A stretch of 64,000 nt of DNA from Tissierella sp. MB52-C2 (lineage in GTDB: Bacteria; Bacillota; Clostridia; Tissierellales; Tissierellaceae): positions 2,148,643 through 2,212,642 of the forward strand of contig NZ_CP133261.1 in assembly GCF_030931715.1 (NCBI RefSeq), given 5' to 3'. The notes beneath the pieces were generated by a model. That model did no database searches. It saw only the letters and a list, made by a program, of their open reading frames with translations, and was not told the origin of the DNA. Below are positions 31,236 to 54,834 of the stretch, piece after piece. How positions within the stretch are numbered: position 1 is the stretch's first letter; every line of letters begins with the position of its first letter. A program made the translations under genes and the position numbers.

Positions 31236-31258
31236 AAACTAATATACAAATATAAATC

Positions 31259-33972: not shown

Positions 33973-33999
33973 ATTACAACTTCATTACATATTTGTAAT
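33973..33999. promoter_or_regulatory. candidate BceR binding site upstream of bceA
   Basis: ATTACA (33973-33978) is repeated 11 bases on (33984-33989) and followed by its complement TGTAAT (33994-33999), giving a direct repeat plus a 6-4-6 inverted repeat. A TATAAT with a poor -35 lies between it and the bceA start, as expected for an activated promoter. Confidence 0.55.
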
Positions 34000-34004
34000 A
34001 AAAC

Positions 34005-34032
34005 AAAAAACCATGAATAGTTCATGATTTTT
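34005..34032 (-). terminator. terminator after the BceS-type kinase gene
   Basis: Minus-strand stem AAAAATCATGAA / TTCATGGTTTTT with T-rich tail. Confidence 0.75.
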
Positions 34033-35689: not shown

Positions 35690-35900
35690 AATCTTCCTCC
35701 GTATTTATAATAATCTCCATAGAAAAACTATAACCTATATAGCCTCAACATACCACTCTAAAATTCAACATATTTTATTTTATATCAAATTGTTTTTTAT
35801 AGCATACTATTGTATATTTCCTCAAATAGACTTTTTTCTTATTATTATCTTTCACCAATTTAATAAAATTTATCATATATAAAGATGCCACAACATTTTT

Positions 35901-35933
35901 ATATTAATAAATAAAGCACTTATTTATTAATAT
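35901..35933 (-). terminator. terminator after the SAM methyltransferase gene
   Basis: Stem ATATTAATAAATAA / TTATTTATTAATAT overlapping the stop codon. Being pure A/T it is weaker than the others. Confidence 0.55.
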
Positions 35934-36700: not shown

Positions 36701-36733
36701 TTTGATCTCCTTCCTCTAGAGTTTTGTATTATT

Positions 36734-37312
36734 CTAATTTACCAATATGTCTTTAATATAATTAAACTGCTCATCTATTAGCTCATCTGTAATGTTCATT
36801 ACTTCCGATGAAACTCTTATTCCTTCAAGTAACAAAATAATATTTTTTGCCGCAATCTCTTTGTTTACGGAGTTAAATTCTCCTCTGTCCATGCCATATT
36901 GAATTAACTCAGATAATATTTTTACTGCTGAATCAAATTGTTCCTTTAAAATATTTTCTTCAATATTACCAATGTTTAGAAAGAAGAATTCATAGATAGC
37001 AACTGCCAAATTTTGATCTTTATTTAGTAATTCCTCTTTCTGTTCTTGTAAAAAATCTTCAAGTATTTCTACTCCTGAAATTCCATTCTTCATTCCATCT
37101 AAAAATCCAAATCCTACTCCCTCTTGATCTATACGCAATACTTCTAGAAATATTTCATGTGTGCTCTTATAATACATGTAAAGACCTCCACGGCTGATTT
37201 CACAGGCTTCTACAATATCTGTCATAGTAACTTTTTTGTATCCCTTTTCTATAAATATCTTTCTTGATTTTTCCAATATAAGTCTTTTTTTAAGTTCTGA
37301 TTTAGTAAGCAT
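36734..37312 (-). CDS. TetR-family repressor
   Basis: N-terminal helix-turn-helix VTMTDIVEACEISRGGLYMYY (about 28-48) and an all-alpha ligand domain to residue 192. It likely represses itself and the methyltransferase: an 18-base palindrome fills the spacer of its own promoter. Start has GGAGG seven bases ahead. Confidence 0.92.
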   Translation of the reverse strand: MLTKSELKKRLILEKSRKIFIEKGYKKVTMTDIVEACEISRGGLYMYYKSTHEIFLEVLRIDQEGVGFGFLDGMKNGISGVEILEDFLQEQKEELLNKDQNLAVAIYEFFFLNIGNIEENILKEQFDSAVKILSELIQYGMDRGEFNSVNKEIAAKNIILLLEGIRVSSEVMNITDELIDEQFNYIKDILVN

Positions 37313-37350
37313 AATAAGCCTCCAATTAAAAATGATATTATTATGATTTA

Positions 37351-37379
37351 ATTATATGACACTAATGTCATATTGTCAA
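37351..37379 (-). promoter_or_regulatory. consensus promoter with built-in TetR operator
   Basis: Minus-strand TTGACA (37374-37379), 17-base spacer, TATAAT (37351-37356): a perfect consensus. The palindrome TATGACA-CTAA-TGTCATA (37355-37372) fills the spacer and would block polymerase when bound. Confidence 0.85.
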
Positions 37380-37468
37380 TTATTTATATAATTCTTTATC
37401 TTATTTTAAATCCAACAAATCAAAAATTTGCAAAATATTAACTAATAATGCGACTTTTTTTCTATATA

Positions 37469-37520
37469 AAAGAGAGACTCTAGGACTTAAAGTTTCCCTT
37501 GTCCATTTGGGTCTCTCTTC
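37469..37520 (-). terminator. terminator downstream of the decayed gene
   Basis: Two-part stem, AAGAGAGAC / GTCTCTCTT with inner GGAC / GTCC, followed on the minus strand by TTTATAT. It probably ended the gene whose remains lie at 37586-38295. Confidence 0.6.
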
Positions 37521-37585
37521 ATTATTTTCAACAAAAGCCGAAGCGTACTCAGTACCTTTTCTTTCTTAAGCTTACTCCAATTTTT

Positions 37586-38295
37586 CTATTTTCTATTATC
37601 TAGGATTTCTTTTTTCTCCCAAGTGTTCATATCAATAGTGTTTCCTTAGAATCAACTGCTCTATCTTCCATAGTTTTAACATTAACAGGTCTTAATTCTA
37701 ATTTGTGTACCCCTGTATAAATCCCAAAATCATAGATTTCATCAGAACCTTGGACATAGTATATAATATCTTTTCTTTTCCCAAGAATATTAGCTACACC
37801 CTTTTTATCAACTAAAATTCTTGTTTTCCCTGTTTTAGTATTTCTTTCCTTTATCCTTAAATAGTTTATATTGTAGTCTGCTGTTACGTAATATATGTAA
37901 TCGGCCTCTATTATCATTTGTGGTACAGAGTTATCAATTCCATATTCTGCTGTAATTCCTTCCTCATAGGATTTTATCTCTGGATTCATATTAATCTTAT
38001 CTTTATTATATTTATAGTATTCTCTCTCGGATACTATCTCATATCTAAGTCCCTTTTCTTTTAAAGAATAAGAGTTAAGAAGATCTTTTTCAGCTAATTT
38101 TTCTGCTAAAATAATATTTTCTTCTCCTCCGGGAACTAGTAAAAAAGCATTATATATTAAATAAAGAGCATCCTTAATTTAAAATTCCTTTAACTCTTTT
38201 AAATTTTCGGCCTCTTCAAAATCTAAAAGATAGATATCTTGGGCTAAAGTATATATATCTTTACCATTTGTATCATTCCCTCTTTTTTGAGTATT
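37586..38295 (-). pseudogene. decayed gene, beta-propeller-like protein remnant
   Basis: A run of coding-like sequence on the minus strand broken by a TAA at 38179-38181 and a frame change near 37630. The longest intact piece (37627-37989 from an internal ATG) reads IIEADYIYYVTADYNINYLRIKERNTKT; the repeated pattern of IYY, LRIKERN, IIYYVQGSDEI recalls DUF5050/TolB-like beta-propeller proteins, which I cannot confirm. The frame upstream of that ATG continues as EREYYKYNKDKIN, and past the TAA as LLDFEEAENLKELKEF. No start codon with a ribosome site remains. Confidence 0.6.
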
Positions 38296-38340: not shown

Positions 38341-40497
38341 TTATAACCTATCATATATATTTTCAATGTCTATTCTAGATTCTTTCAATACTTTCTCTGT
38401 ATTTTTTATATCAACTAACTCATATTTAAGAACTTCTATTTGTGCAAATCTAGGTAAATGTTTATAAAATTTAGAATGACTTTCAAAGTTAGAAGATATT
38501 AGTGCCTTCTCAATTATTTCTTCTATTTTATCTGTATCTATTTTATATCTATTGAAAATATCTAAAATATGTTTTTCAGTAATATCTTTTTCTACTTCTC
38601 TAACCTTAAGTTTGTCATAAGAAACACTAAATTCAAGCTCAAGTTCATATTGAAATATTAATCCAAGGGTAAAATTCACCTTTTGTCCTGCGTAAGTATA
38701 TATATCAAATCCATCTTTTATTACATCAATGAGAACTTCATCTAAATCTAAAGAAAATGCAGAATGCTCTAATCGTATACTCTTTAATACAGACTTAGAT
38801 TTCATATCAATGTATGGATAGTCACTGTTACTATTAAGTACTTTTAGCATTTGCTTGGCTATCTCATAAGATATAACCATTCCACTACCCATCCATGTGG
38901 CAAGTCCACCTTCTTTAGATATTTTCACATATATTCTATATCTATCATAATCTATCTTATCTATCTGCCATGTATTTCCTGCTAATACAAATTTAGATGT
39001 CTTGTTTTCCTTTAATAGTGAATAGATGAACCAAGATTGTAAAGTTCCAATTTCCTTATTTTTATGTATAATTGAAAATTCAGATACCGTTTCAAATACA
39101 GATATAAAGTTCATTAAAAAATTATAGCCATATTCCTTCTCAATTTCCTTGCCAAGCAGATATTCACCATTACTAAATTCCAGATAGTTTTCATCTATAA
39201 GATATTGAATAAAGCCTAATAACTTATCCTCGTTAATATCTTTAAATGAATTTGATTTCTCCACAATTTCTTTTAAATATGGCTGATTTAGCCCAAATTT
39301 TTGTTGGATCATAGAAAATAATTGTTGAAATAGTACAGTATATGCTGCTAATGGAGTTGGAGTAGACTCTATCCACTTTTGTCTTGCTAATTCAACAATT
39401 GCAATGGCATTAATTAGGAAGAATTCTTGGCTAACACAGAACTCATAATGAGATATAGTTCCTTGCCTTCTACCCGTCCTCCCCATTCTTTGTCTAAATG
39501 AAGCCACTGTTGAAGGACTGTTTAATTGCATAACAACATCTAGTTCGCCTACATCTATTCCTAATTCCATAGTAGAAGTGCAGCATAAACACATTTCACT
39601 TGGAGTATTTTTTAATTTATCCTCAGATATTTCTCTTAAATTCTTACTAATGGAAGAATGATGAACTTTTGCATTTAACCCTAAGTTCTTTAGGATTCTA
39701 GACATCATTTCGCTATTGGTTCTACTATTACAGAAAAATAATGCCTTTTTGTCTCTTAACTCAGGTAGGAGACAACTAACGGTATCTTCACTAAACTCAT
39801 CAAAGTATCTAATAAATATTCTAGATTTATTACCTTTGTTTTCTGGCTTAATAACAGATTTTCTTCTTTTACTAGATCCAGATATCCAATTTAAAATTTC
39901 TTCTGGATTACCTACTGTTGCAGATAAACCTATCCTTTGAATATCATACTTTGAATAAGACTGTATCCTTTCAATGATACTCATTAGTTGAGCCCCTCTA
40001 TAGTTTTCTGCAAAATAATGTACTTCATCTATTACTATGAATCTTATATTTGAAAACAATTCCTCTGAGTCATATGAATCTGACATTAGTATAACCTCTA
40101 GTGATTCCGGAGTAGTGGCTATAATATGTTTTGGTTCTATCTTAAACTTTCTCTTATTGCTATAATCAACTTCTCCATGCCATTTAAAAGCATCTATGGA
40201 TCCAATTTTCCCAAGTTTTTTCAATCTAAATTCTTGATTATTAAGGAGCGCCCTAATTGGAGATACATAGATTACAGAAATAGGTTTCAAATTTTCTTTA
40301 TAAATTTCAGATATAATGGGTAAAAATGCTGCTTCTGTTTTCCCTCCAGCAGTTTGTGCAATTAGGATACAGTTATCTCCATTTAGAAGACATGGAATAG
40401 TCTTTTCTTGTATAGGTGTTAAACTATTCCACTTTAAAATATCTTTGATTCCATTCTGAATTTTACCATCCAGTAAGAAATAACTAGATTCCATCAT
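38341..40497 (-). CDS. brxHI: BREX helicase BrxHI (Lhr-like)
   Basis: A superfamily 2 DNA helicase of the Lhr type. Motif I AQTAGGKT (47-54), motif II DEVH, motif III LSATVG, motif VI QRMGRTGRR; the C-terminal half (from about 370) is the unclassified domain found in BrxHI. BrxHI is present in BREX types that have BrxD, here as the last gene of the operon. Its start overlaps the brxD stop by four bases (ATGA). How the helicase contributes to blocking phage DNA replication is not known. Confidence 0.9.
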   Translation of the reverse strand: MMESSYFLLDGKIQNGIKDILKWNSLTPIQEKTIPCLLNGDNCILIAQTAGGKTEAAFLPIISEIYKENLKPISVIYVSPIRALLNNQEFRLKKLGKIGSIDAFKWHGEVDYSNKRKFKIEPKHIIATTPESLEVILMSDSYDSEELFSNIRFIVIDEVHYFAENYRGAQLMSIIERIQSYSKYDIQRIGLSATVGNPEEILNWISGSSKRRKSVIKPENKGNKSRIFIRYFDEFSEDTVSCLLPELRDKKALFFCNSRTNSEMMSRILKNLGLNAKVHHSSISKNLREISEDKLKNTPSEMCLCCTSTMELGIDVGELDVVMQLNSPSTVASFRQRMGRTGRRQGTISHYEFCVSQEFFLINAIAIVELARQKWIESTPTPLAAYTVLFQQLFSMIQQKFGLNQPYLKEIVEKSNSFKDINEDKLLGFIQYLIDENYLEFSNGEYLLGKEIEKEYGYNFLMNFISVFETVSEFSIIHKNKEIGTLQSWFIYSLLKENKTSKFVLAGNTWQIDKIDYDRYRIYVKISKEGGLATWMGSGMVISYEIAKQMLKVLNSNSDYPYIDMKSKSVLKSIRLEHSAFSLDLDEVLIDVIKDGFDIYTYAGQKVNFTLGLIFQYELELEFSVSYDKLKVREVEKDITEKHILDIFNRYKIDTDKIEEIIEKALISSNFESHSKFYKHLPRFAQIEVLKYELVDIKNTEKVLKESRIDIENIYDRL

Positions 40498-41819
40498 AGT
40501 TCCATCTCCATGGCCATTTCTCTACCATATAGTTCGATCTGCTTATTGACTTCTTCAATTTCTTTTTCAGAAATGTTTAGAAGTGATTTTATTTTACTCA
40601 TAGGTTCTCTTTTTGCTGCTTCCAAGATGAATATAAAGTTTCGTAAAAAAGTCCTCGGTAATATACTTACTTCCTTTCCAAATGCATTGGTAAAACTTTG
40701 AACATAATCTCTAATAAACTCGTCTGATATTTTACTTTCAGGATTCCATTCATGGACAATTCCATGAATGTATCTTACTTTTCTAGAAACTTCTATCAAT
40801 TGACTTGAATCAAATCTTGACAATTTAATAAGAGGTTGTTCTAATATTCGAATATCACCTAGTTTAATTGGTTCTATTCTGGTATATAAAGCATCATGCT
40901 CCTTTATACCTTTTTCTTCGTCTTCTATCAATTCTTCTGTACCAGTTAGAAGAAGATAGCAACCGGGCAGGTTATCTTTACTAACCATATCTATAAGTAA
41001 TCTTAAATTTTCATAAGCCTGATATCTTATATCTTTTCTCTCTTTTCTTACAGTCTCAACTTCATCTATTATTACTAATAAACCTGCATACCCAGATTTT
41101 TCTATGATATAAAGTAATGTTTTAAGAAACTCAAATACATTTCCCTTATCTACTGATCCTTTAACCCCTATGCTCTTCTTTATATCGGCAGGTATATTTG
41201 TATCACCAGCAAACCAAGCAAGAGACTTTCGTGCCAATGTATTGTCGCCACTTAATAGCCCCGTACAAAATGATATAACTGCATTTACAATAGAAACATT
41301 AGTTGTATTTGCTTTCGCTAGTTCTAATGATATCTTATCTCTAAGCCTTACTATAAGTTTTTCTTCGTCCTCCTCATTATCATCAGGATCTAAATTGTAT
41401 TTACTTATAATCTCAGATTTTTCTTTTTCAATCCAACTTTCAATTATAATTCTAAAAGCAGAGAACTCTCTAAACTCATTTGTTCGCATCCCAACCATTA
41501 TTTTATTATATATTGTTTCAAAATTATGAAGTTGAGTATTTTTAGATATTACTATTTCTGAGATAACAAAATTATCCTTCAGTGCTTCCTCTTTTAATAC
41601 TTCGCATAAAAAAGATTTACCACTTCCATATGGGCCATATATCATTTTGAATCCTGAATGTGCGTTACCATTCGATTTGAATCTTATATAGTTCAAATCT
41701 TCTAGTATTGCATCTCTCTCTTCTTCATGACCACACATAATATGTTTAGCACCTTCATATGCTGGTACACTTCCATTGTGTAAAGCCCTTAAAATTTGTT
41801 GTCCTTCGTTTATATTCAT
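40494..41819 (-). CDS. brxD: BREX ATP-binding protein BrxD
   Basis: An AAA-type ATPase with Walker A GPYGSGKS (62-69) and Walker B LLVIIDEVETV. Family BrxD (DUF2791) is found in BREX types 2 and 6. 441 residues is typical. It follows pglZ by 15 bases and overlaps brxHI. Confidence 0.9.
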   Translation of the reverse strand: MNINEGQQILRALHNGSVPAYEGAKHIMCGHEEERDAILEDLNYIRFKSNGNAHSGFKMIYGPYGSGKSFLCEVLKEEALKDNFVISEIVISKNTQLHNFETIYNKIMVGMRTNEFREFSAFRIIIESWIEKEKSEIISKYNLDPDDNEEDEEKLIVRLRDKISLELAKANTTNVSIVNAVISFCTGLLSGDNTLARKSLAWFAGDTNIPADIKKSIGVKGSVDKGNVFEFLKTLLYIIEKSGYAGLLVIIDEVETVRKERKDIRYQAYENLRLLIDMVSKDNLPGCYLLLTGTEELIEDEEKGIKEHDALYTRIEPIKLGDIRILEQPLIKLSRFDSSQLIEVSRKVRYIHGIVHEWNPESKISDEFIRDYVQSFTNAFGKEVSILPRTFLRNFIFILEAAKREPMSKIKSLLNISEKEIEEVNKQIELYGREMAMEMEL

Positions 41820-41834
41820 CCTATGAATTCCCCC

Positions 41835-44477
41835 CTATTTCAGATAGTACTCGTATGTTGACATACCTACAACCTTAAAACCTATCCAATCATATCCTTC
41901 ATTGTTAAGTTTTGAGATGAAATCTTGCATAAATGCCATTACTGATTGAGATATAAACCTAATACCATTCTCATTACATATTTCTTGTATCTCAGAATCT
42001 GTATAAGAAGATGCTCTTAAGAATAACTCTAGTATTCTTTTCTCTTTCTTACTTAAACCATTACTGTCTATATAGTTTTCTATTTGTTCTTTAACTGATT
42101 TAGGAATTTCCCTTGCCTCATTTTGAGCAATATCCATATTTAAGCCAACATCATCCAAACTAATTTGTTCTACTACCTCAGGAGTATATTTCTTTATTAC
42201 TTTTTCATCATTTTTCTCTATAACTATTACAGGTACTAGTAATTCTTGAAGCGATATTCCTCCATGGTGAAATTTAGTACCTCCACTAACTGGAAACACA
42301 TTTATTCCCCTTGGAAAATTAAAATATAAATCTCCATCATAATTAGAGGAGTAGGCACTCTTAGTTATATAGTTTCCGTCTACCTTTTTTCTTGAAATAG
42401 TATATCTTCGTTTCTTTACAACATTATCCATATCCTTTGAAATATCAACCTTCATCCATTCCTCTAGCCCAGAAGTTAATATGAAGCCATGATCTGCAAC
42501 AACAACTATTTTTTCAATATCAATCTGTACCAATTTCTTTATTGCACTTTGTATCTTATTGAGCAATCCGGGAAACATCTGAATGTTGCTATCTTCAATG
42601 TGACCAGCCTCATCGATTTCATTTGAAAAAATTAATATTCTATCCTTTTTTTCAAATTCATTCTTTAAACTATTTATTGGAATATCTACAATTTCATTTA
42701 AGTTCTTAACTACTCCATCGCCATCAGATATTTCTAAGAAATACTTTACACGTTCCGATTTATTATTTAATGGATAATTAAGGTTTCCGTCTGTTATTTT
42801 AACCGAATCATTCTCTTCATTTAGGCTAAGTTTTGTATAACCGTTAGGTAACAAACTAGCCATTCCGAATTCCGTAACTGTTGGTATAGAAGAAATAATT
42901 GGTGTGATTGTTTTATGTTTAATTTCATTAAGCATTGAGAATATTTCTTTTCCCATTTCATATCTTAAAGCATCTACTATTACTACTGCTGTCTTCTTAT
43001 CAGAGTTTGATACATATTTAGACCAAAAATCTAATTGTATATCTGTCTTAAATTCATAATCGTGTTTACTCTCAATAATATTAGATATTTCTTCATTTAA
43101 GGGTTTAAGATATTGGTAATAATATCTCTTGTCCACAAAGTTTAGAAGTTGAGATATAAAATCATCAATCAAAGTGTAATCTTCTTGAATTTTCCTATAC
43201 AATAAGTCTATCTTCCACCAACTTTTAGTTTCATAAAGAGAAATTATATTATCTATGTTATTATCTATTATTTTAAACTCTTCTTCAAATATATAAATCA
43301 TGTTTATTAACTGAAATATATTATTAAGGATATTCCATTTATTAAATATCTTTGATTTAGAAAAATAGTATCTTCTCCTAATATCTACAAATACATTTAG
43401 ATCTTTTAATTGGCTCCTCAGTGATTCTATATCTATACCATTTTCACTTTCGCTATATTGATAACTTTTTTGCTCTTCCTTCACATATAAACCATTTAAA
43501 TATCCCAATAAATCTTCTTTTATTAAATGTGGATCCTGAACCCCTTTAAATATCTGAATCTCTAATTTTTTATATAAAATTTCCTCTATACCATATAGAT
43601 ATTCAATAGCAAATAACTCGTCAACTTCCATTTCATTAAGTACATCAATCATATGTTTTTCAGAAACCTTTTTAGAGTACTCAACAAACTTTTCTCTATA
43701 AACTTCATGATTAGCCCATGTTTCTAGAAGTTGAACACAATTCATTATTTTATTAGTATTTGATAATCTAATTCCAAAAGGTCTTATATCTTTATTTCTA
43801 CTTTTCTGGATCAACTCACTTTGGAATAAACTATCTGCAATGTATTCAACAACTTTAGCCTTTGACTCAAAGTTTGATACGTTAATACCATACTCTAAAG
43901 AGAGGAACTCAAAAAATTTATCTTTAATTCTTGCCTCTTCAAGAATAGATTCATACTTATCTGTTTCACAAATATATTTAAGTATTGTATATTCTTTACT
44001 AATATCAACATATCCAAATCCATTAGTTAAGACAATGTCATCTAGTGTTTCTTGATTAAGGCTTCTAATGACACTTTCAGGTATTACATCCCATAATCTT
44101 TTCAATATATTTAGGCGTTCTTCCAGTGTTGATATGTCAAATTGTCCAAAATCTATCCTGTGATTTTTTTCTAAGATATCTTTTACTGACGCAATATATG
44201 TGTCTCCAAAATATTCAAACTCAGTTAAAAAACCCTGCTTATTCTCTACATTAGAATATATAAGCCACTTTTTTGTAAGTTCACTATCAGCCAATAGGAT
44301 TTTGTAGCGGAGTTCAATAAAACTGCCTTCATAGGCAATTTTATTGACTCCTTGTTCATCAAATAAATTAAACTCTTGTAAAAATTCATTCTGCCAATCA
44401 TACCATATAACAATATTAGAGTTCTTAAATTTTTCCCTTATCTCTGCTTGAATCAATTTATAAAATGGTGTTTTCAT
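41835..44477 (-). CDS. pglZ: BREX phosphatase-like protein PglZ
   Basis: Defining BREX component of the alkaline phosphatase superfamily. The PglZ domain is in the second half: AVVIVDALRYEMGKEI (about 495-510) and VVVADHGFILTSG (about 655-668) hold metal ligands. The N-terminal half is mixed alpha with coiled parts; the C-terminal 100 residues look like a winged-helix tail. 880 residues. Its ATG overlaps the pglX stop codon (TAATG). Confidence 0.93.
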   Translation of the reverse strand: MKTPFYKLIQAEIREKFKNSNIVIWYDWQNEFLQEFNLFDEQGVNKIAYEGSFIELRYKILLADSELTKKWLIYSNVENKQGFLTEFEYFGDTYIASVKDILEKNHRIDFGQFDISTLEERLNILKRLWDVIPESVIRSLNQETLDDIVLTNGFGYVDISKEYTILKYICETDKYESILEEARIKDKFFEFLSLEYGINVSNFESKAKVVEYIADSLFQSELIQKSRNKDIRPFGIRLSNTNKIMNCVQLLETWANHEVYREKFVEYSKKVSEKHMIDVLNEMEVDELFAIEYLYGIEEILYKKLEIQIFKGVQDPHLIKEDLLGYLNGLYVKEEQKSYQYSESENGIDIESLRSQLKDLNVFVDIRRRYYFSKSKIFNKWNILNNIFQLINMIYIFEEEFKIIDNNIDNIISLYETKSWWKIDLLYRKIQEDYTLIDDFISQLLNFVDKRYYYQYLKPLNEEISNIIESKHDYEFKTDIQLDFWSKYVSNSDKKTAVVIVDALRYEMGKEIFSMLNEIKHKTITPIISSIPTVTEFGMASLLPNGYTKLSLNEENDSVKITDGNLNYPLNNKSERVKYFLEISDGDGVVKNLNEIVDIPINSLKNEFEKKDRILIFSNEIDEAGHIEDSNIQMFPGLLNKIQSAIKKLVQIDIEKIVVVADHGFILTSGLEEWMKVDISKDMDNVVKKRRYTISRKKVDGNYITKSAYSSNYDGDLYFNFPRGINVFPVSGGTKFHHGGISLQELLVPVIVIEKNDEKVIKKYTPEVVEQISLDDVGLNMDIAQNEAREIPKSVKEQIENYIDSNGLSKKEKRILELFLRASSYTDSEIQEICNENGIRFISQSVMAFMQDFISKLNNEGYDWIGFKVVGMSTYEYYLK

Positions 44478-47400
44478 TACGTTCCTACCTCTTCATAGTA
44501 GTTATCTCTTTCTCTCTTAGTTGCTACTGGGGCTGATAGTATAGGTTCTATAGGTATTATATTGTACAATACCCCTTCATCTATATTGGGTTTGTATGGC
44601 AATATCTCCATTATCTTCTTATCTAAAATGCTTAGATCTTCTAATTTTGCTTCTAAGTCACTACATTTATCTTTGACATCTTTTTCTTTACTCTTATCAC
44701 CGTTAGTCCTTGCCTCAATTAATTGATTGGTATAATACTCTAAATCTTCCTCGTATCTATCAATCATTTGACTTAAATAGATGCTCTTAACTTTATATAA
44801 AGTATCATCGTCTAGTTTATGATAGTATACAAAACAATTAAAAGTTTTCTTAGGGCTACAAATATGCCAGTATATTGGACGTTTTTTATAACTTCTAGAA
44901 TGATTTTTAAAGAAATCATTAATAATATATTTTTCAAGAGTTGTACCAAGAATCTCTTCAATTTCTTCAAAAGTATTATCAGAATTTTCTACACCAAAAT
45001 ATTTCCCAATAATAATATATATCTGTTCTATAATATCTTTTTCTAAATAGATCGAAGAATTGACTGGAACAATACCATCATCTATAGACTTTATATCATT
45101 ATTCCATCTATCAAATATGCATCCAATTAAAATACTTATAATGTTTTCTAGTTCCTTCTTTATTGCCTTATCTCCATATAATTTTTCTTCTATTCTTTTT
45201 TTGATTAAAATATCCTTTCTTAAATTTAACTTTTTACTTACTAGATTATAATTTGGATTATTGTCTTCATTTATCAATTTGATGTAATCAGACTTATCTA
45301 CATCGATATTATTATTTACTCCATTTTCCTCTTCAATAAATTCAACTTCATCTTCGCTTATCTTGTATGTATCATAGACTAATCTATTAATTATTTCATC
45401 CCTATTGTATACATCTAAATCAATCTTATCTTTTATATTAAGAAAATTTAAAATAGTCATCTCCATAGAGTCAGAAAGTAACTTTATTATATTTTCAAAA
45501 TTGAAATATCTAGATATTTCTATAAGAGAGTATTTATGCCTTAAATCCTCAATGTTTTCTAATACATTTTTTTTAATTATATTATTGTTTTCCAAACTAA
45601 ACTTCTTAATAGGCAACCGATTTACATCTCCAACTTGACAATGATTAGTCGGATTTATAACATTTAAAAAGTAGATTATTAAGTTTGAATTCATTAAGCC
45701 TAATAAAAAGAAATTATCAACACCTTTTTTAGGAAATATACCTGGTTTATCATCTTCGATTATAGTGTTTTCGTGAAGATATTTGGCACTAAAATTGGCA
45801 CCGTATGGTGATCTGGGATAATACATGCCTTCAGTATTAAAGTAGTTTATACCTGTATAACCTCCCTTGCTTTTATAAAATTCTATAGCATTTTCAGAAA
45901 AATCTACCACTGTATTATCTAAAGATACATATCTGTCTCCACCAGGTATTTGGTTAATCCATTTCCATTTTTCGTAGTTATTAACTTCCCAATAAAATCT
46001 AATATATTTATAATTAGCATATGTACTTATCCCTCTTTGGACGTGTGCATATTCTTTGTAGTTAGATTTTAAAAAATAATTTAATATATTCTCAGATAAT
46101 TTATAGGTAAAAGGATACCCTTTTATTATTTTAAACTTTTCTTGATTTATTTGATATTCTTTTATCCCTTCTGTTATATTTGGATAGTCTGCCCGATTTT
46201 CACAACTAGTTATATCCACAAACTCAGACTTTAAATTTTCTTGTTTAGTTTTATTTAGTGTAAACATTACACTATTAACCTTCTCACCTGTAAGTTCTTC
46301 AAATATTCCAGTTCCTAGATGAACAACCTTTTCTATTTGATTAAATTCTAATATGTTTTTTCTAAGATCTTTATACTTAGGAGTAAACATAAATCCATGT
46401 TGAACAATCATACCTAATATCCCATTTTCATTCAAAAATTCTTCGCATCTCATTATAAATGCCGAATATAAATCTTCACTGCCTGCATTATAATTACTTA
46501 TTATAAAGTTCTTTAATTTTATATCCATATTTCCAATACCCATATACGGAGGGTTAGTAACTACTACATCATAGCCTGTTTTTTGCATGAATATATTTAC
46601 AAGTTTGATTGATTTTGTAGCCTCAGTGGCAAATAGTTGTCTTGATATATCATTGGCTTTAATTGCCTCACTATAAATGGCATTCAAACTGTCCATAAGT
46701 TCTCTTTCTTCCTTGGTAAAGTCTCGCTGAGATTTATACTCGTCAAAAGAAATGGTTTGGTCTTCTAGTAAATTTTCTTGACCTTTAGTTTGCTTCTTCT
46801 TTGTTCTTTTCGCTTTACTTAATTCCTTCCTTGCAATTCTGTTCTTAAATTCCTCAAACAATGGAAATAATTTCTTTTCTGGTTGAATAAGGCTCCCTTT
46901 AAGCCTTACATCTTCAAATTCTTCATAAATAATTTCTATCATTTTTAATATTGTCTTATTGTTTTTATGTTTTTCTTTTAAATCTTCCAATCTACTTCCG
47001 TTTAACAAAATTGCATCAGCACATACCAAATTAACTGAAAGTTTACCTTTAGTATTTGTGTTATAACCATTTTCTTTTAGATAAGTCTTAGTTTTTATAA
47101 ATAATATTAACCCTGTCAATTGAACTGCTCTTAAATCTATATCTATACCATGAATGTTATTTTCTAATATTTTATAAGGTATTTCCTCTATTGTATATTT
47201 TCCTTCTTCTAAATACATCTCAAAAAATACATCGTATGCTCTTACTAAGAAGTGTCCACTTCCACAACAAGGATCTATAAGTTTAATGTCTTCAACATTT
47301 TTTTTGTCCCTTAATCCATTCTTCATTTCAGAATATACTTTATAAAGAGAATTATCTATTATCCAATTCACAACCCAATCTGGAGTAAATATTTGAGTTG

Positions 47401-48091
47401 TTGCTGGAACTTCATCTACGCTGATGAAAAAGTCTTTTTGATCCTGCCTTGTATAGATCTCACTTTTTTCTATGGAATTAAAATATTGATAAATCCAACC
47501 TATGATTTCATCCTGTCTCCATGATTCCTCATCAATATTGGAGCATAAAAGTTCTATTACTTTTAATAAACTTGTACTTGATGGAGTTACGAAGGAATAT
47601 TCATCCTCCGTATTAAACAACATCTTTATCTCCTCACTGATTTCTTCAAACATTATATTTAAGAGATAGGCTAATCCTCCATCCATTTCATACTTACAAT
47701 ATTCTCTTGCAACTTCATAGAATCTTGACCCAATAAATGATCTATTACCATATTCACCTCTAGGTATTAAAATTTCATCAATAAGACCTCTGACTTCCAT
47801 TACCCTAAGTGCTGCTAAACGATTAAGATAGGTGTATGAAACTTCCTTTATATACTCTATAACGGCTTTGTCTTTCTCAAATCCACCTTTTTTAAGTTTT
47901 TCAATTGCTTTTTCTATATTCTTTCTGTTCTTCTCTTGTTTCTCAGTTAAATTTTTTAAATCCCTTAAATTAACCCAGTCTTTATTAATATAAATACCAT
48001 AATTTATTAAAACCTGTTCTATATCTTCTTCTAATATGTCTCTACACTCAAGAATAGTAGACTTAATAGACTTCTTTTGTTCTGCATTCAA
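44477..48091 (-). CDS. pglX: BREX adenine-specific DNA methyltransferase PglX
   Basis: Methylates host DNA at N6-adenine in a fixed non-palindromic site to mark self. SAM motif I is DPCCGSGHFLVRAYDVFFE (about 275), catalytic motif NPPYMG (about 513). Target recognition and coiled-coil regions fill 600-1204. 1204 residues equals typical PglX. The frame is intact, with no sign of the phase-variable tracts known in some pglX genes. It is separated from brxC by 11 bases. Confidence 0.95.
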   Translation of the reverse strand: MNAEQKKSIKSTILECRDILEEDIEQVLINYGIYINKDWVNLRDLKNLTEKQEKNRKNIEKAIEKLKKGGFEKDKAVIEYIKEVSYTYLNRLAALRVMEVRGLIDEILIPRGEYGNRSFIGSRFYEVAREYCKYEMDGGLAYLLNIMFEEISEEIKMLFNTEDEYSFVTPSSTSLLKVIELLCSNIDEESWRQDEIIGWIYQYFNSIEKSEIYTRQDQKDFFISVDEVPATTQIFTPDWVVNWIIDNSLYKVYSEMKNGLRDKKNVEDIKLIDPCCGSGHFLVRAYDVFFEMYLEEGKYTIEEIPYKILENNIHGIDIDLRAVQLTGLILFIKTKTYLKENGYNTNTKGKLSVNLVCADAILLNGSRLEDLKEKHKNNKTILKMIEIIYEEFEDVRLKGSLIQPEKKLFPLFEEFKNRIARKELSKAKRTKKKQTKGQENLLEDQTISFDEYKSQRDFTKEERELMDSLNAIYSEAIKANDISRQLFATEATKSIKLVNIFMQKTGYDVVVTNPPYMGIGNMDIKLKNFIISNYNAGSEDLYSAFIMRCEEFLNENGILGMIVQHGFMFTPKYKDLRKNILEFNQIEKVVHLGTGIFEELTGEKVNSVMFTLNKTKQENLKSEFVDITSCENRADYPNITEGIKEYQINQEKFKIIKGYPFTYKLSENILNYFLKSNYKEYAHVQRGISTYANYKYIRFYWEVNNYEKWKWINQIPGGDRYVSLDNTVVDFSENAIEFYKSKGGYTGINYFNTEGMYYPRSPYGANFSAKYLHENTIIEDDKPGIFPKKGVDNFFLLGLMNSNLIIYFLNVINPTNHCQVGDVNRLPIKKFSLENNNIIKKNVLENIEDLRHKYSLIEISRYFNFENIIKLLSDSMEMTILNFLNIKDKIDLDVYNRDEIINRLVYDTYKISEDEVEFIEEENGVNNNIDVDKSDYIKLINEDNNPNYNLVSKKLNLRKDILIKKRIEEKLYGDKAIKKELENIISILIGCIFDRWNNDIKSIDDGIVPVNSSIYLEKDIIEQIYIIIGKYFGVENSDNTFEEIEEILGTTLEKYIINDFFKNHSRSYKKRPIYWHICSPKKTFNCFVYYHKLDDDTLYKVKSIYLSQMIDRYEEDLEYYTNQLIEARTNGDKSKEKDVKDKCSDLEAKLEDLSILDKKIMEILPYKPNIDEGVLYNIIPIEPILSAPVATKRERDNYYEEVGT

Positions 48092-48102
48092 CGAACTCCC
48101 CC

Positions 48103-51100
48103 CTATTCAATCATTATGCTGTTTCCAGCACTAATCTCTTCCATTAATTGTTTCTCAATTTTTTTCAGATAGTCTTTAAGAGACTTCGGACTTTGAATAA
48201 GTACGTTTTTAGGAAAATTGCTTGTACTTAGATACTTAATTACTGGTTTTGGAACTTCAACCTCATCTTCTTCCATTTCTTCTTCAATTTGCTTGTTAAG
48301 ATACTCATATAACTTATCTATGGCTTTTTCATTATAAACATCTACTGCATCTATAATTGTTTTCATATCCCTAATAAATGTTCTACAACTAGGACATGGA
48401 ATCTCTAATTTAGAAATATTATGAGAACATAATTTGTCAGAAAATGTACTTAATATGTCTCCTTTTGCTATTTCACTTTTCAGATTTAAGAAACTCTTAT
48501 TCTTGCTCATTTCTTCTATTTTCTCATTATAAAGTTTATATAGAGTTTCATGAGTTTCTATATATTCTTTTACATATGGATCATAGAGTTTATAAAAATC
48601 ATCTCTAACAGTAGGCCATGAATCTATAAATGCTTCACTTTTTAAATCCTTCATTATTTGGGCATATATTTTTTCTTTAATTTCTATATCCTCATCATTG
48701 CGATCTAGTTCTATTATCCATACATTGTTTAAGAAATACTTCATTTTCTTATATTCTTTTAAGTTCCCATTATCAATAAAATTCTTTAATTTCTCATATT
48801 TTGATAAGAAGGTTCCATATTCTGAGGCTTTTTGAACAAAGTTGTTTATAGTTTCACCTTGTGTCTTTGACTTTAATATAGTGTTGAAAATCTCATCTAA
48901 CTTATCTATTGAATCTTTAAATGCTAAATTATTGCTAGATATTATTTCTTTTATTGCTGAAATATCATTTCTATAGTCAATTAATATATTTCTCGTATTG
49001 CTATATAACTCAACTAAGGTATCTTCAGATCTTTTGTCAAACATATTCATTAAAATATCCTGACATTTTTGTCTAGTGGATGCGTCAACTACTACTGCTA
49101 ATTTGAATATTGCTTTTCTAAAATTAGGCTCATTTTCAAATATATCTCTTACTCCTGATTGATTGTAGTCAAGAAAATCTTTGCCTTCGTAATTAAGTTC
49201 TATATTTCCATTTTTAAATAGTAAGGCCGTAAAAAGCCGTACTGCATCTGAGGCCCAGCCATATGGCTCATTATCAAATACACTTAATAAATCCTTACCA
49301 ATACATTGTCCATATTTATTTTTCAAGGTTTTTATTTCATTTAAAACTTCTTTTAATACAGCAGATTCTGCATTTACATTGGTGTCCTGTATTAGATTTA
49401 ATCCACTTAAATCTATAGATAATTGATTTCCTTTAAATACACTCTGTATATCTTCTTTTGTTATCTTAACACCTACTGTATCAAATCTATGATAGACTTT
49501 TGGTATTGCTAGATTAGCAATATCTTCAAATATGGATTTTAAATCATTTTTATCTGGTGTAGGAAATTCCTTTCCTTGATATATATAGGTACCATCAATA
49601 AAAGACTTTTTAATCTTCTCTTTTATATCTTCATCTAACTTTATATTCTTTTGTTCTTCTTTTCTTAAAAAATAACTCTTATCTTCGTCCGAACTCCATT
49701 TTCTTCTATATTCATCTATTATTTTATTAAAGATCAAATATTGCTGCATATCTTCATCAATTGAATTATCATACTTTGCATACCAATATATATTTCTACT
49801 ATCTCCAATACTTTTCATTAGATGCTGTTGTTTTCTCAATTCATCTGAAGATTGCATCACACTATTTAAATTAAGACTTACTAGACCCCTACTATTCCTT
49901 ACCTCATCATCTATAGTTAGTTGTATATCAAATGGTCTAATATTTTTGTAATTTATTCTTGTTATGGTAAATATGCCATCGATTACTTCTTTTACTTTTT
50001 TATTTATATCTCTAACTCCAATTTCATTTAATCTAGAAATTGCTTCTTGCCTAAAACTCTGCTCCTCAGGCGCTATGAACTTATAGTTTCCATGGGCATC
50101 TTTTTCCACATATCCATGCCTGTATAATATATCTAGACTTGATTTAACCTCTTCTAAAATATCAATAAAGTCTGCATCTACATTGTTTATAAGTAATTTT
50201 GCAATAGTATCTATGTCTTTTTGTAATTTATCATCATTGTCTAATAGATAAAGCACTTTTAAAATCTTTACTAATAATTCTCCATTATTTGGGTCCAGTT
50301 GTTCCGCTTCTTTAATACTTATTTGAATTTGATCATCTATAAATTCTTTTGCCTGTTCAAAGAACATATCTAAAGTAACTAATTCACCAATATTCTTCTC
50401 TTTCACATTAACATTACTGTCAATAAGTATCCCTTGAGTTGCTTTAATCATACTTCTGTTAGTTCCACCTAGTTTCTTGTTAACTTTTGAATTTGAGATT
50501 ACATTATAGTAAATAGGCTGAATTAGTCTTATATGATAAGGAAGAAAAGGATAAGTATCTATAAAATCTTCTTTATTTAGTTTAGGCATATACCTTTTAA
50601 AATCTTTGAACTCTAAGATAGATGATAACTTTCCTTTATTACTCTCATATAATCTATCAATATCTTTTACTACGTCTGACTTTTTCTTTAAGACTCTTTC
50701 ATTTATAACCTTATCTAAGTTTTCTGGAGTTAAATGTATTCTTACTTCAAATCTATCTATTACTTTATTTACCTCATCCTCAGTCTTTAAATACTGCTCT
50801 GTTATTTGTTCTAATTTGTTTTGTGAAGATACTGCAAACCATAGTTTGCCTTTACCTTTTCTTGCAAATGTACTTTCTATGGCTTGTAAATATCCTATTA
50901 CCTCTGGATTTGCTGAAATGTATTGACCTATTTCATCTACGATTACAAATAATCTATTATTTAGCCCATTCTGTTTGTCTAGTTCGTCAACATACTTACA
51001 TAACTCATCTGCCAAAATAGACGCAGAAATACTTTTACTTCTCTTAAGGTCTTCTATATAATCTTTTGCTATTGATTCCGTGGGAATTTGCTCCGGTAAT

Positions 51101-51729
51101 ACCCTAACTAGTGCTCTTTGGATATAGTTTTGACCTATTCTTGTTGGCCTTATATCCTCCCATTTTCTATTACTCATTTCTTCAATGGTTTGTACAAATT
51201 CTTCATACTTTCCTTCATCAGATAGTTCTTTTTCCATCTCTGCTACCCAAAGTTTCCCAGTATAAAATCCTCTCTTGCTTAGCCATTGTTTATAAATAGT
51301 TTGCTCTATAGGCTCAACTTTGCCTTCTAATTTTGCTGCTTCTTCTAAGATGTCGAACATTACTACAGTAGTTTTATAAGTTTCATTTATTTTTTCTATA
51401 TAGTTTTTTAAAGTATTTGTTTCGTCTCTTCTAATAAAAATATCTGCAGCAGAAGAATCATCAAATTGATGGTTTTCTAGTAAGTAACCAAATATCTTTA
51501 AGAAATGTGATTTACCTGAGCCAAACCATCCTGATATCCAATATCCAACTTTGTTTTTATCATTAAGATATTTATCCAAACACTTCTTAAAATGTTCTCT
51601 TAATTGGTCTGTAATAACGTACTCCTGTAATTCTTGTTTAGCCACATTTACATCGTCTTCTTGTACCTTAATTACCGGATTTATGTATCTTTCTATAGGA
51701 TCCCTAAATAAATCTTTAATTATTATCAT
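48103..51729 (-). CDS. brxC: BREX P-loop ATPase BrxC
   Basis: Large AAA+-like ATPase, essential in studied BREX systems, with Walker A ISGWFGSGKSHF (65-76) and Walker B LFVIVDEIGQYI. DUF499-type core, then a long helical C-terminal region with CPSC near 1090 that may bind zinc with a distal cysteine/histidine. 1208 residues, as expected. It follows brxB by 15 bases. Confidence 0.94.
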   Translation of the reverse strand: MIIIKDLFRDPIERYINPVIKVQEDDVNVAKQELQEYVITDQLREHFKKCLDKYLNDKNKVGYWISGWFGSGKSHFLKIFGYLLENHQFDDSSAADIFIRRDETNTLKNYIEKINETYKTTVVMFDILEEAAKLEGKVEPIEQTIYKQWLSKRGFYTGKLWVAEMEKELSDEGKYEEFVQTIEEMSNRKWEDIRPTRIGQNYIQRALVRVLPEQIPTESIAKDYIEDLKRSKSISASILADELCKYVDELDKQNGLNNRLFVIVDEIGQYISANPEVIGYLQAIESTFARKGKGKLWFAVSSQNKLEQITEQYLKTEDEVNKVIDRFEVRIHLTPENLDKVINERVLKKKSDVVKDIDRLYESNKGKLSSILEFKDFKRYMPKLNKEDFIDTYPFLPYHIRLIQPIYYNVISNSKVNKKLGGTNRSMIKATQGILIDSNVNVKEKNIGELVTLDMFFEQAKEFIDDQIQISIKEAEQLDPNNGELLVKILKVLYLLDNDDKLQKDIDTIAKLLINNVDADFIDILEEVKSSLDILYRHGYVEKDAHGNYKFIAPEEQSFRQEAISRLNEIGVRDINKKVKEVIDGIFTITRINYKNIRPFDIQLTIDDEVRNSRGLVSLNLNSVMQSSDELRKQQHLMKSIGDSRNIYWYAKYDNSIDEDMQQYLIFNKIIDEYRRKWSSDEDKSYFLRKEEQKNIKLDEDIKEKIKKSFIDGTYIYQGKEFPTPDKNDLKSIFEDIANLAIPKVYHRFDTVGVKITKEDIQSVFKGNQLSIDLSGLNLIQDTNVNAESAVLKEVLNEIKTLKNKYGQCIGKDLLSVFDNEPYGWASDAVRLFTALLFKNGNIELNYEGKDFLDYNQSGVRDIFENEPNFRKAIFKLAVVVDASTRQKCQDILMNMFDKRSEDTLVELYSNTRNILIDYRNDISAIKEIISSNNLAFKDSIDKLDEIFNTILKSKTQGETINNFVQKASEYGTFLSKYEKLKNFIDNGNLKEYKKMKYFLNNVWIIELDRNDEDIEIKEKIYAQIMKDLKSEAFIDSWPTVRDDFYKLYDPYVKEYIETHETLYKLYNEKIEEMSKNKSFLNLKSEIAKGDILSTFSDKLCSHNISKLEIPCPSCRTFIRDMKTIIDAVDVYNEKAIDKLYEYLNKQIEEEMEEDEVEVPKPVIKYLSTSNFPKNVLIQSPKSLKDYLKKIEKQLMEEISAGNSIMIE

Positions 51730-51744
51730 ACTCTTGACCCCTTT

Positions 51745-52287
51745 CTATATTATTAAAGCCCTAAGGGCAGTTTCCTTATATTCGTCCAATAGTGTTACTG
51801 AGAATCTGTCATAACTCCCCGGATAAAAGAATACGACTGGAATTTGAACTCTTCCTTCTAAATAAGATAGTAATCTTATAAAGTTAAAGTATATAGCCGT
51901 TGCCCCTACTCTAGTCACCAATATTCTTCCTTTAGGACCTATTTCTTTTGCCTTGGATATGAAGTGAGACCTTACTTTTTCTAATAAAAATTCTCCTAAT
52001 TCCTCTACCATGTCAATGTCTTCTTCTATCTTTTCTAATTGGATAATGCCCTCTATAGTCTCGTATTCCTCTATAATATCAAATAAAAGTTGCTCCATAT
52101 TTATCAATTCTATATGAAACGCTTCTATTTCCTGTTGCAATTTGTTTATTATATACATAACATCCTTATGTTCCTCTTTTTCATATGGACAAATGACAAA
52201 AGGAACTCCTGAATGTCGTACCCAAGCAAGGCTATCATTATTGATTAACTCTGTTATCTTAGTGTATTTCTCCATTAACGTAGCCAT
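51745..52287 (-). CDS. brxB: BREX protein BrxB
   Basis: DUF1788 family, about 180 residues, small alpha/beta protein with unknown activity but needed for BREX. Visible hallmarks are WVRHSGVPFVICPYE near the start and IPVVFFYPGSYD near the end. AAGGAGAT lies ahead of the ATG, which is 29 bases inside brxA. Confidence 0.92.
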   Translation of the reverse strand: MATLMEKYTKITELINNDSLAWVRHSGVPFVICPYEKEEHKDVMYIINKLQQEIEAFHIELINMEQLLFDIIEEYETIEGIIQLEKIEEDIDMVEELGEFLLEKVRSHFISKAKEIGPKGRILVTRVGATAIYFNFIRLLSYLEGRVQIPVVFFYPGSYDRFSVTLLDEYKETALRALII

Positions 52288-53050
52288 CTATTATCTCCTT
52301 CATAGTTTTATATTTATATATTAAAGTTTTAGGTTCTTCTCTTCCAAAGTCTAAAACTCCATTTCTATATGCTTCTTCAAGTAACATATGAATGTCGCTT
52401 TCTAATAACAAAAACAAATGTAAATCCTTGCATTTATATACATCTTCTGTAGTTTTAATATTATCTTTATTCATATATAAAACATAGTAAAAAATTATTG
52501 ATGGAATAAATGGTTTATTAAATGTAGGTCTTTTTCTACTATCAATAAAACCAAATTCCTTTAATACTCCCATCATACCTGAACGTACATCGTTAATGGT
52601 CCTTTCTGACCATTTAGATACATTTTCATCTTTATCAGCAAGACCTAAAATAAACTCTGTAGTGTCCGCTGAAGATATCCCTAAAAAGCCATCTGTATAT
52701 TTTTCATATACTAGATTTGCTATATATTCGTATATGATTCTTTCTTCCTTGCATAAATAGTAGTATAAAAGGAGGTTGATAATACTATCTGAATCAATCT
52801 TTTTCAAAGAATAGATAAACGAAGTTTCTTTATAGCCATCTAATTGATTGTATAAATATCTTTTTCTTAACTCGTAAAATATTGTCTCTGCTCTTCTTTT
52901 TGAAGTTTTCAAGATTAAATTATTATCGAGTACCTCTTTTCTTAAAAGTTCTACATCTTTTAATTCTAGATATTTTTTTAATATTAGTTTTGTGTCTGGT
53001 AGAACTGTACCTACCACTTTAATACTAGATCTGTAATCCTTTGATTCCAT
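52259..53050 (-). CDS. brxA: BREX protein BrxA
   Basis: DUF1819 family, a helical DNA-binding protein of BREX. Pattern LKKYLELKDVELLRKEVLDNNLILKTSKRRAETIFYELRKRYL matches the BrxA N-terminal helical region. At 263 residues it is longer than the Escherichia type 1 protein (about 200). The frame extends to 53104, but the ATG at 53050 has AGAAGGA upstream and overlaps the brxE stop (TAATG), so it is chosen. Confidence 0.88.
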   Translation of the reverse strand: MESKDYRSSIKVVGTVLPDTKLILKKYLELKDVELLRKEVLDNNLILKTSKRRAETIFYELRKRYLYNQLDGYKETSFIYSLKKIDSDSIINLLLYYYLCKEERIIYEYIANLVYEKYTDGFLGISSADTTEFILGLADKDENVSKWSERTINDVRSGMMGVLKEFGFIDSRKRPTFNKPFIPSIIFYYVLYMNKDNIKTTEDVYKCKDLHLFLLLESDIHMLLEEAYRNGVLDFGREEPKTLIYKYKTMKEIIDGYVNGEIH

Positions 53051-53670
53051 TATATAGCCATCCTTCTCATATAGTATGGAGTTACAACGCTTCCTAGCGT
53101 GCATAAATCATAAATTGATATAAATGATTTTATTACATCTTCAAAGTTTTCTTTATTTTTGTAAAAAGTTTCGCTTATGCTACCTAATTCTATAGTCTTT
53201 TTATCATCTAAAGTATGAGTAGTTAATTTAGGTAGATTAAAAAATTCTCTAGCCCATGGGTCTGTAAACTTTTTGTCCTTGATATTTTCAATCATATCTA
53301 ATACTTCTTGCCAACCATTAGAGTTTGATATTTCCCTTATAAATGGAGTAAATATCTTACTCTCAAACTCATATCCAAAATTAAACAACGTAGTGAATCT
53401 TTTTTTAGCAATTTCTCTATTTTCTTTTTGAATTATTATCTTTCTTGCAATATCATAACGTTGCTTATGAAAAGTATTAGGGAAAAACTTCTCTAAGTTT
53501 CTTCGTCCTACTTCACCTAAGATACTAGACTCCCACCACACATTATTATCCTCTTCTCCTAAACGGATAATAGTTAATCTATAAAAAAGTGTATCTGCTA
53601 ATATTTCTGCATTAACTTCTGAGTTATGTTTCTTTGCTAATTCATGAATTTTATTCCTTATGGCTTGCAT
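53050..53670 (-). CDS. brxE: BREX protein BrxE
   Basis: First gene of the operon. Sequence features RLTIIRLGEEDNNVWWESS and LEKFFPNTFHKQRYDIARK match the BrxE family (RLGE, WW-S, L-FP-T, then a helical region), which is diagnostic for BREX type 6 and of unknown function. 206 residues is the usual size. GGAGG is seven bases ahead of the ATG. Confidence 0.85.
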   Translation of the reverse strand: MQAIRNKIHELAKKHNSEVNAEILADTLFYRLTIIRLGEEDNNVWWESSILGEVGRRNLEKFFPNTFHKQRYDIARKIIIQKENREIAKKRFTTLFNFGYEFESKIFTPFIREISNSNGWQEVLDMIENIKDKKFTDPWAREFFNLPKLTTHTLDDKKTIELGSISETFYKNKENFEDVIKSFISIYDLCTLGSVVTPYYMRRMAI

Positions 53671-53704
53671 ATGAATTCCTCCAATCTGTTATGTACTACT
53701 TATG

Positions 53705-53771
53705 ATTATATCCTTTTTAGTGGAAAAAATAAAGAATTCCAGCAATCTTTTTTTTATTGCTGGAATTTCTT
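53705..53771 (-). promoter_or_regulatory. BREX operon promoter with overlapping hairpin
   Basis: A TATAAT (53705-53710) lies 35 bases upstream of the brxE start. Its -35 (TTTATT) is poor. Just upstream is a strong inverted repeat (53732-53746 with 53756-53771, core ATTCCAGCAAT) with an A8/T8 loop. It could terminate incoming transcription or be a regulator site. Confidence 0.5.
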
Positions 53772-54367: not shown

Positions 54368-54378
54368 ATGTATTGTAT

Positions 54379-54714
54379 GAGTAAGTCTATAAGCCGTGTT
54401 CTGTTTAAATGGTCATCTATCTAAGACCTATCGTTACCAATAGGTTCATGCGACCTACCTCTGGAACGGCAGCGGGCAACCGCCTTCTTATGTTCCCTTT
54501 TGGTCTTGCTCCAGATGGGGTTTACATAGCCATTTAGTCACCTAAATGCTGGTGAGCTCTTACCTCGCCTTTCCACCCTTACCTAGTAAATCTAGGCGGT
54601 ATCTCTCTGTTGCACTATCCTTAGGGTCACCCCCACTGGACGTTATCCAGCATCCTGCCCTATGGAGCACGGACTTTCCTCATGTGTTTCCACACGCGAC
54701 CACTCAACTTACTC
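54379..54714 (-). ncRNA. rnpB: RNase P RNA, class A-like
   Basis: The catalytic RNA that trims tRNA 5' ends. Conserved blocks on the minus strand include GAGGAAAGTCCGTGCTCC near the 5' end, GGGTGACCCTAAGGATAGTGCAACAG (split motif), GGTAAGGGTGGAAAGGCG, and at the 3' end AGAACACGGCTTATAGAC. GAGTAAG at the 5' end pairs with CTTACTC at the 3' end, which defines the boundaries. The ending resembles class A RNAs rather than the Bacillus class B. Confidence 0.95.
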
Positions 54715-54729
54715 ATAATCTAGATATAT

Positions 54730-54758
54730 AATATAACATAAATCGTCAAAATATGCAA
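54730..54758 (-). promoter_or_regulatory. sigma-A promoter of rnpB
   Basis: Minus-strand TTGCAT (54753-54758) and TATATT (54730-54735) with a 17-base spacer, 16 bases ahead of the mature RNA. Confidence 0.6.
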
Positions 54759-54834
54759 AGGATATATTTTCTATGATTTACATAATCTCTCTTTCTTATC
54801 TTTATCTTATCCTTAAAATCATTAAATATTCAAT

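Follow-up and report, generated by a model that had tools for sequence, protein, structure and literature searches.

What kind of bacteriophage exclusion (BREX) system is an operon whose gene content points to one class and whose sequences point elsewhere, and how might its sensing core reach its restricting arm? These questions are raised by a locus in a 64,000-nucleotide stretch of Tissierella sp. MB52-C2 (contig NZ_CP133261.1, positions 2,148,643 to 2,212,642; hereafter the window, whose own coordinates are used throughout), in which eight intact and tightly packed genes run on the minus strand from 53670 to 38341 in the order brxE-brxA-brxB-brxC-pglX-pglZ-brxD-brxHI. We interpret them, with a probability of roughly 0.7, as a complete BREX operon of type 6 composition that belongs to a distinct clostridial lineage, moves as one unit and would work via a core together with a BrxD/BrxHI pair coupled to it by the tail of PglZ. 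The kind of BREX is already known; what is new is the lineage, which combines type 6 content with non-type-6 sequence and a new type of PglZ tail. The leader and the genes, with the two protein segments that matter below, are as follows.

53671..53768, minus strand: leader of the mobile unit, with a hairpin, a TATAAT-like -10 and a GGAGG site
53050..53670, minus strand: brxE, 206 aa; NCBIfam BrxE_fam NF033447 E 4.5e-33, 115 bits (cut-off 40); BREX-6 BrxE equivalog NF033448 68.8 bits (cut-off 80)
52259..53050, minus strand: brxA, 263 aa; PF08849 E 1.4e-24; start moved from 53104
51745..52287, minus strand: brxB, 180 aa; PF08747 E 3.9e-13; PADLOC BrxB E 3.3e-17
48103..51729, minus strand: brxC, 1208 aa, AAA+ ATPase; NF033441 717 bits (cut-off 400)
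44477..48091, minus strand: pglX (brxX), 1204 aa, N6-adenine methyltransferase, TTG start; NF033452 636 bits; NPPY
44867..46594, minus strand: apparently exchanged PglX recognition region, about aa 500-1075; identity drop against [Clostridium] ultunense
41835..44477, minus strand: pglZ, 880 aa, phosphatase-fold nuclease; PF08665 E 2.6e-24; catalytic motifs conserved
41835..42173, minus strand: PglZ C-terminal tail, last 112 aa, TerB-C-like by hhalign against SngA-type tails
40494..41819, minus strand: brxD, 441 aa, AAA+ ATPase; PF10923 E 1.1e-95; NF033438 260 bits (cut-off 350, missed)
38341..40497, minus strand: brxHI, 718 aa, superfamily 2 (SF2) helicase with an Lhr-type winged helix (PF19306 WH_Lhr); PADLOC BrxHI E 2.9e-185; SngC E 3.8e-145; closes the conserved unit

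Families were assigned with PADLOC and Pfam models and with NCBIfam models, which carry curated bit-score cut-offs. An earlier note on this DNA, made from the letters alone, had placed eight intact genes in this order, and the open reading frames (ORFs) do lie where it put them, with the expected families and catalytic motifs. It had proposed a hidden Markov model search of all eight proteins and would have given up its reading had the first of them fallen outside BrxE; PADLOC and Pfam models match the other seven as BrxA, BrxB, BrxC, PglX, PglZ, BrxD and BrxHI, and the 206-aa first protein, for which these two sets give no match, is BrxE at the family level by BrxE_fam. Catalytic motifs are intact in BrxC (GWFGSGKS) and BrxD (GPYGSGKS), as are those of BrxHI (TAGGKT/DEVH/QRMGRTGR), PglX (DPCCGSG/NPPY) and PglZ (VDALRYE together with conserved T and HGG motifs), and the haloarchaeal and cyanobacterial BrxE proteins have a conserved GE..WW core in common with ours. 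Comparing starts across copies, we corrected brxA to a start that gives a 1-nt overlap with the brxE stop, the arrangement seen in two near-identical copies, and rejected a 281-aa reading from 53104 as an over-call; the TTG start of pglX is kept in 3 of 3 copies. BrxC has a single match in the whole genome, BrxL (PF20442) has none anywhere in it, and a PglW kinase was not found among the eight genes or the flanking genes scanned. Because Spo0A is present in the genome, the spore-forming host named in the earlier note is plausible.

The operon belongs to the BREX superfamily, with a PglZ domain and a BrxC-type ATPase in one operon, and its gene set and order are those of type 6, shared family by family with the classical type 6 plasmids Pseudanabaena galeata pPg_02, Aulosira laxa plasmid3 and Azospirillum sp. 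TSH58. This is as far as the label "BREX type 6" given by the earlier note carries: BrxE stays under the cut-off of the BREX-6 equivalog, PglX scores 367 bits with the BREX-6 model NF033455 (cut-off 900) and PglZ 92.7 bits with the BREX-6 PglZ model (cut-off 400), PglZ scoring best with the type A model, again under that model's cut-off. PglX, at 1204 aa, also differs from the 1313-1621 aa of its classical type 6 counterparts, and it passes the BREX-1 model NF033452 (cut-off 500), yet the operon differs from type 1 in carrying BrxE and BrxD/BrxHI and in lacking BrxL. It resembles type 2 (Pgl) in having BrxD/BrxHI homologues right after pglZ, but lacks PglW and PglY. A 2026 survey treats types 5 and 6 as type 1 subtypes and counts 506 type 6 taxa against 160 of type 5 and 457 of type 4 (PMC12839542), figures that do not bear out the claim that type 6 is among the rarest classes; that it has been studied far less than type 1 fits our literature searches, which turned up no functional work on any such system.

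BrxE is not exclusive to type 6, because operons of the form brxE-brxA-brxB-brxC-pglX-pglZ-brxL exist in haloarchaea (six plasmid operons on five plasmids, from Halobaculum, Natronosalvus, Halomarina, Halomontanus and Haloarcula) and in one Bacillota genome. Their first six genes and the order of these are as in the window, whereas they end in BrxL rather than BrxD/BrxHI, and the haloarchaeal BrxC proteins are the best full-length matches to ours outside Clostridia (about 30% identity). The haloarchaeal plasmids (L050-L053, L059, L060) have extra genes between pglX and pglZ, and Haloarcula halophila carries two copies on one plasmid, with brxC and pglZ split in one and brxC and pglX in the other.

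The end of PglZ is where the restricting arm and the core may meet. The C-terminus of type 1 PglZ is a beta-barrel or beta-sandwich (PMC12205998, PMC12839542) and type 2 PglZ has a winged helix at that position instead (PMC12839542). The beta-sandwich tail is homologous between type 1 and haloarchaeal BrxL-system PglZ (hhalign E 3e-10 and 7e-9), whereas the PglZ of the window lacks it and has a different segment of about 110 aa at its end; in BrxD/BrxHI systems PglZ ends in domains other than the beta-sandwich of the BrxL systems. The segment matches the C-termini of SngA-type proteins, encoded directly before BrxD/BrxHI homologues in Shango and in Shango-like clostridial triads (hhalign E 8.5e-6, score 33.8); none of 200 column shuffles scored as well (maximum 20.1), and the best of 57 other BREX segments was a stretch overlapping the tail itself. 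Three of the matched triad proteins carry Pfam TerB_C at their C-terminus. In [Clostridium] ultunense DSM 10521, which carries a near-identical operon, an extra 691-aa ORF absent from the window lies between pglZ and brxD, directly before brxD (L020 of G243 C3, joined, 17625-19700, minus strand), and the end of its product, after about 580 other residues, copies the PglZ tail at 66% identity. Such sequence relations suggest that the tail is a docking element for BrxD and, through BrxD, for BrxHI.

The likeness to Shango extends to the pair itself, SngB resembling BrxD (E 3e-55) and SngC resembling BrxHI, with a TerB-C tail like that of our PglZ on the protein just before sngB. Shango, however, consists of three genes without a methyltransferase and without PglZ, and in the window PglZ replaces SngA; an SngA with TerB domains is not what we find, the TerB-C likeness being confined to the PglZ tail. 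Shango goes unmentioned in the BREX survey (PMC12839542), and a paper linking the PglZ tail to it was not found in the open literature searched. As a separate observation, Tissierellales relatives commonly have Shango-like triads on their chromosomes, in which a TerB-C-tailed protein is joined by a BrxD-like ATPase (PF10923) and an SngC-like helicase (L113, L114, L116-L119).

Putting these parts together, we propose the following working. PglX would methylate adenines of the host DNA within an asymmetric motif that depends on its exchangeable recognition region; BREX is described as telling self apart through PglX methylation (PMC6326788, PMC11842806). BrxA, BrxB, BrxC and BrxE, together with PglX and PglZ, would form a surveillance complex on unmethylated DNA, in which PglZ would be the primary effector; in type 1 this protein nicks DNA in a metal-dependent manner and forms a complex with BrxB (PMC12205998). 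BrxD, as an AAA+ loader, and BrxHI, as an SF2 helicase, would stand where type 1 has BrxL, with unwinding by BrxHI taking its place; the TerB-C-like tail of PglZ would recruit BrxD and so serve as the adaptor between sensing core and helicase, and BrxD, already proposed as a possible BrxHI loader (PMC12839542), would load BrxHI. Activity in the host, docking by the tail, helicase loading, BrxHI unwinding in place of BrxL and the membership of BrxE in the core are the inferred parts of this scheme. Several points weigh against the proposal: the tail match is one profile comparison built on four closely related sequences; the PglZ tails of type 2, of type 6 and of the second BREX of a congener (genome G003) have no homology detectable by hhalign to the tail here or to each other; AlphaFold models of the PglZ tail and of BrxE are too poor for use (pLDDT 40 and 42); and the place of BrxE in the core is guesswork. 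Because the type 2, type 6 and G003 tails fail to match, a common adaptor for all BrxD/BrxHI systems is unsupported, and one tail common to type 2, type 6 and Tissierella-lineage PglZ was dropped as a candidate when direct hhalign found no homology. A wider idea is one that we hold only tentatively: BrxD-BrxHI (equivalent to SngB-SngC) may be a single portable helicase module, used in BREX types 2 and 6, the Tissierella lineage and Shango, and joined to sensors via a TerB-C-like winged-helix tail on the protein encoded just before brxD, with "type 6" then a recurrent combination of BrxE core and module rather than a natural group.

Whether the operon is simply a divergent member of classical type 6, in which BrxE, core and BrxD/BrxHI had a single origin and kinship is hidden by long branches, can be judged from trees and comparisons of about 15-29 sequences, which contain long branches and draw their type 6 references from plasmids only. 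A single origin would account for gene content and order identical to those of Pseudanabaena, Aulosira and Azospirillum, and the PglX and PglZ trees allow a clade of our proteins with type 6 (p 0.34 and 0.35). BrxC is marginal, the type 6 alternative having p 0.031 in one sampling and 0.076 in another. The BrxD and BrxHI trees, however, place type 2 and type 6 as sisters with 100/100 support and the Tissierella lineage outside both, and a clade with cyanobacterial and Azospirillum type 6 is rejected by approximately unbiased (AU) tests for BrxD (p 9.7e-5) and BrxHI (p 1.1e-5); an earlier, smaller set gave p 0.011 and 0.018. With BrxE, PglX and PglZ also under their BREX-6 cut-offs and a PglZ tail unlike those of type 6, we consider this explanation unlikely, and the trees indicate that the BrxD/BrxHI module is of separate ancestry from that of classical type 6. 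The same trees limit the earlier note's "type 2-like" pair to a distant homology.

By distance, the nearest BrxD and BrxHI (39% and 42% identity) come from the second BREX mentioned above, a different one within the same genus (G003 C36), and a clade with these homologues is not rejected (p 0.13, 0.24). They lend weight to a different history, one to which we give a little less than an even chance, in which a type 1- or haloarchaeal-like brxE...brxL system swapped brxL, and with it the PglZ tail, for BrxD/BrxHI drawn from a pool present in clostridia; "type 6" would then have had two origins or more. Haloarchaeal plasmids and a Bacillota genome carry brxE...brxL operons, and BrxC groups with the haloarchaeal proteins at support of 94-96 across samplings; the grouping was not starred in the third sampling (94) and PglZ leaves it unsettled, so that the lean of BrxC towards haloarchaeal brxE...brxL systems is weak. 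The exchange may also have run in reverse, an ancestral BrxE system with BrxD/BrxHI having turned to BrxL in haloarchaea. A last alternative, that the operon is decaying or silent, with all genes present but no expression or defence, appears very unlikely: a brxE remnant with two stops in a further genus of the same order (G236), an interrupted pglZ in a carrier from another clostridial family (G693) and a promoter scan without excess of sites speak for it, but the frames are open, selection across genera is purifying, and the -10 and ribosome site are conserved, as set out next.

Returning to the reading of a maintained and mobile operon, a BrxE search of GTDB genome contigs recovered relatives in [Clostridium] ultunense and in an Alkalibaculum bacchi metagenome-assembled genome (MAG), with BrxE 89-91% identical. 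Operon DNA is about 90% identical to both copies from 53768, 98 nt before brxE, to the brxHI stop at 38341, and unrelated beyond, the Alkalibaculum stretch compared reaching as far as inside pglZ. All sampled frames are open in both, and against the C. ultunense copy the ratio of nonsynonymous to synonymous substitution rates (dN/dS) is 0.05-0.13 in seven of the eight genes (pglX excepted), which marks purifying selection. In G693, a fourth carrier, the operon is spread over two contigs (BrxHI 70%, BrxD 80% identical). All three are the same system as that of the window and differ in the PglX recognition region, with contig breaks in the Alkalibaculum and G693 copies and the extra ORF in C. 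ultunense. In a three-way alignment, homology starts exactly at the leader hairpin (a perfect 12-bp stem in the fold, 53735-53767), and a promoter predicted by inspection, with its -10 at 53705-53710, and the ribosome site at 53678-53682 are conserved among the aligned copies; a consensus promoter scan gave sites not above chance, leaving the promoter and terminator scan uninformative. By these comparisons the operon is a maintained, mobile unit that moves between genera, and from purifying selection and mobility we infer that it is probably the active phage-defence unit proposed in the earlier note.

BrxE is rare among the sampled clostridial relatives: with the window's own genome counted every time, BrxE-family proteins occur in 3 of the 249 genomes sampled from the order, where the remnant makes up one of the three, in 3 of 398 from the phylum and in 2 of 391 from the class. 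Scanning viral contigs with BrxC found no relatives, and with BrxE gave no usable pattern; BrxD gave four loci at 21-23% identity, and phage records with BrxC matches look type-1-like or are fragments.

PglX is the gene in which the carriers diverge. Its identity to the C. ultunense protein is 80-96% across most of the first 500 residues, with a dip at aa 201-300, and again past aa 1078, but 12-58% within about aa 500-1075; against Alkalibaculum it is 54-82% in much of that region, with neighbouring genes at 91-95%. At the level of sequence, this is the pattern of an exchanged target-recognition region. Phase variation of pglX via a partial second copy was considered and dropped, the genome having no second copy.

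The surroundings of the operon point to an insertion, for which two further features serve as landmarks.

37509..38276, minus strand: host-gene remnant at the insertion site; ORF 37627-37989 lies within; 555 aa in the congener G003
54374..54715, minus strand: rnpB (RNase P RNA), upstream landmark of the insertion site, outside the system; Rfam RF00010 285.7 bits

In G003 an intact gene of 555 aa comes after rnpB, and of this gene the window keeps only 3' pieces (94% and 93% nucleotide identity to L045 3369-5036), the 5' part missing and an in-frame stop and a 582-bp internal deletion present; the gap from rnpB to the remnant is about 16 kb, BREX included. The alignment indicates that the operon went in next to rnpB, disrupting a gene that the congener still has whole. 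In C. ultunense, too, the operon is found on the rnpB side of the chromosome, at a distance of about 8 kb, and a tyrosine recombinase gene is directly next to rnpB; in the window no integrase adjoins the operon. Relative to G003, extra DNA is present in the window at 31137-35920 (an ABC transporter and a two-component system) and at 36128-37509 (TetR and methyltransferase genes), and the rnpB side is therefore a variable region. Between a Nif3-like gene and rnpB (54716-54834), a gene of about 235 aa found in several relatives is missing in both the window and G003. At 16042-17913 lies a 623-aa N6-adenine methylase with a PglX-like C-terminal half, kept near rnpB in congeners, which is an orphan or type IIG-like enzyme.

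Other BREX loci and their neighbours offer further observations. The second BREX of G003 (C36 33383-48594; L115, L120) comprises a PglX-like protein, a 1388-aa BrxC-like protein, PglZ, BrxD, BrxHI and small genes; it may be an undescribed subtype, its BrxC-like protein barely matching known models. G003 also has a type 1-like BREX (C33, L022) with brxA, brxB, brxC, pglX and pglZ near a contig end, so that with the operon of the window there are three BREX kinds in one genus. Just past the operon a DndB-family (PF14072) gene is intact in G693 (L127 11758-12840) and apparently broken into two ORFs in C. ultunense (L019 13025-14066), and in G693 a GmrSD_N (PF03235) gene is found there as well. 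Both the G693 operon and the different BREX of G003 are preceded by a similar gene pair, a protein of 220-228 aa and an actin-like protein of 308-310 aa (L112 1961-5748; L120 5544-8939), which suggests a shared type of island.

For the family, these results mean that a "type 6" drawn up from gene content can bring together different lineages. The operon bears on how labour is split between the methylating and sensing core of BREX and its restricting arm, as a BrxE core like that of BrxL-using systems here carries a BrxD/BrxHI arm, with a matching change in the PglZ tail. That tail, at about 110 aa, is a short and concrete candidate adaptor that ties BREX to Shango, and the apparently exchanged PglX recognition regions in near-identical operons would form a natural panel for reading recognition rules.

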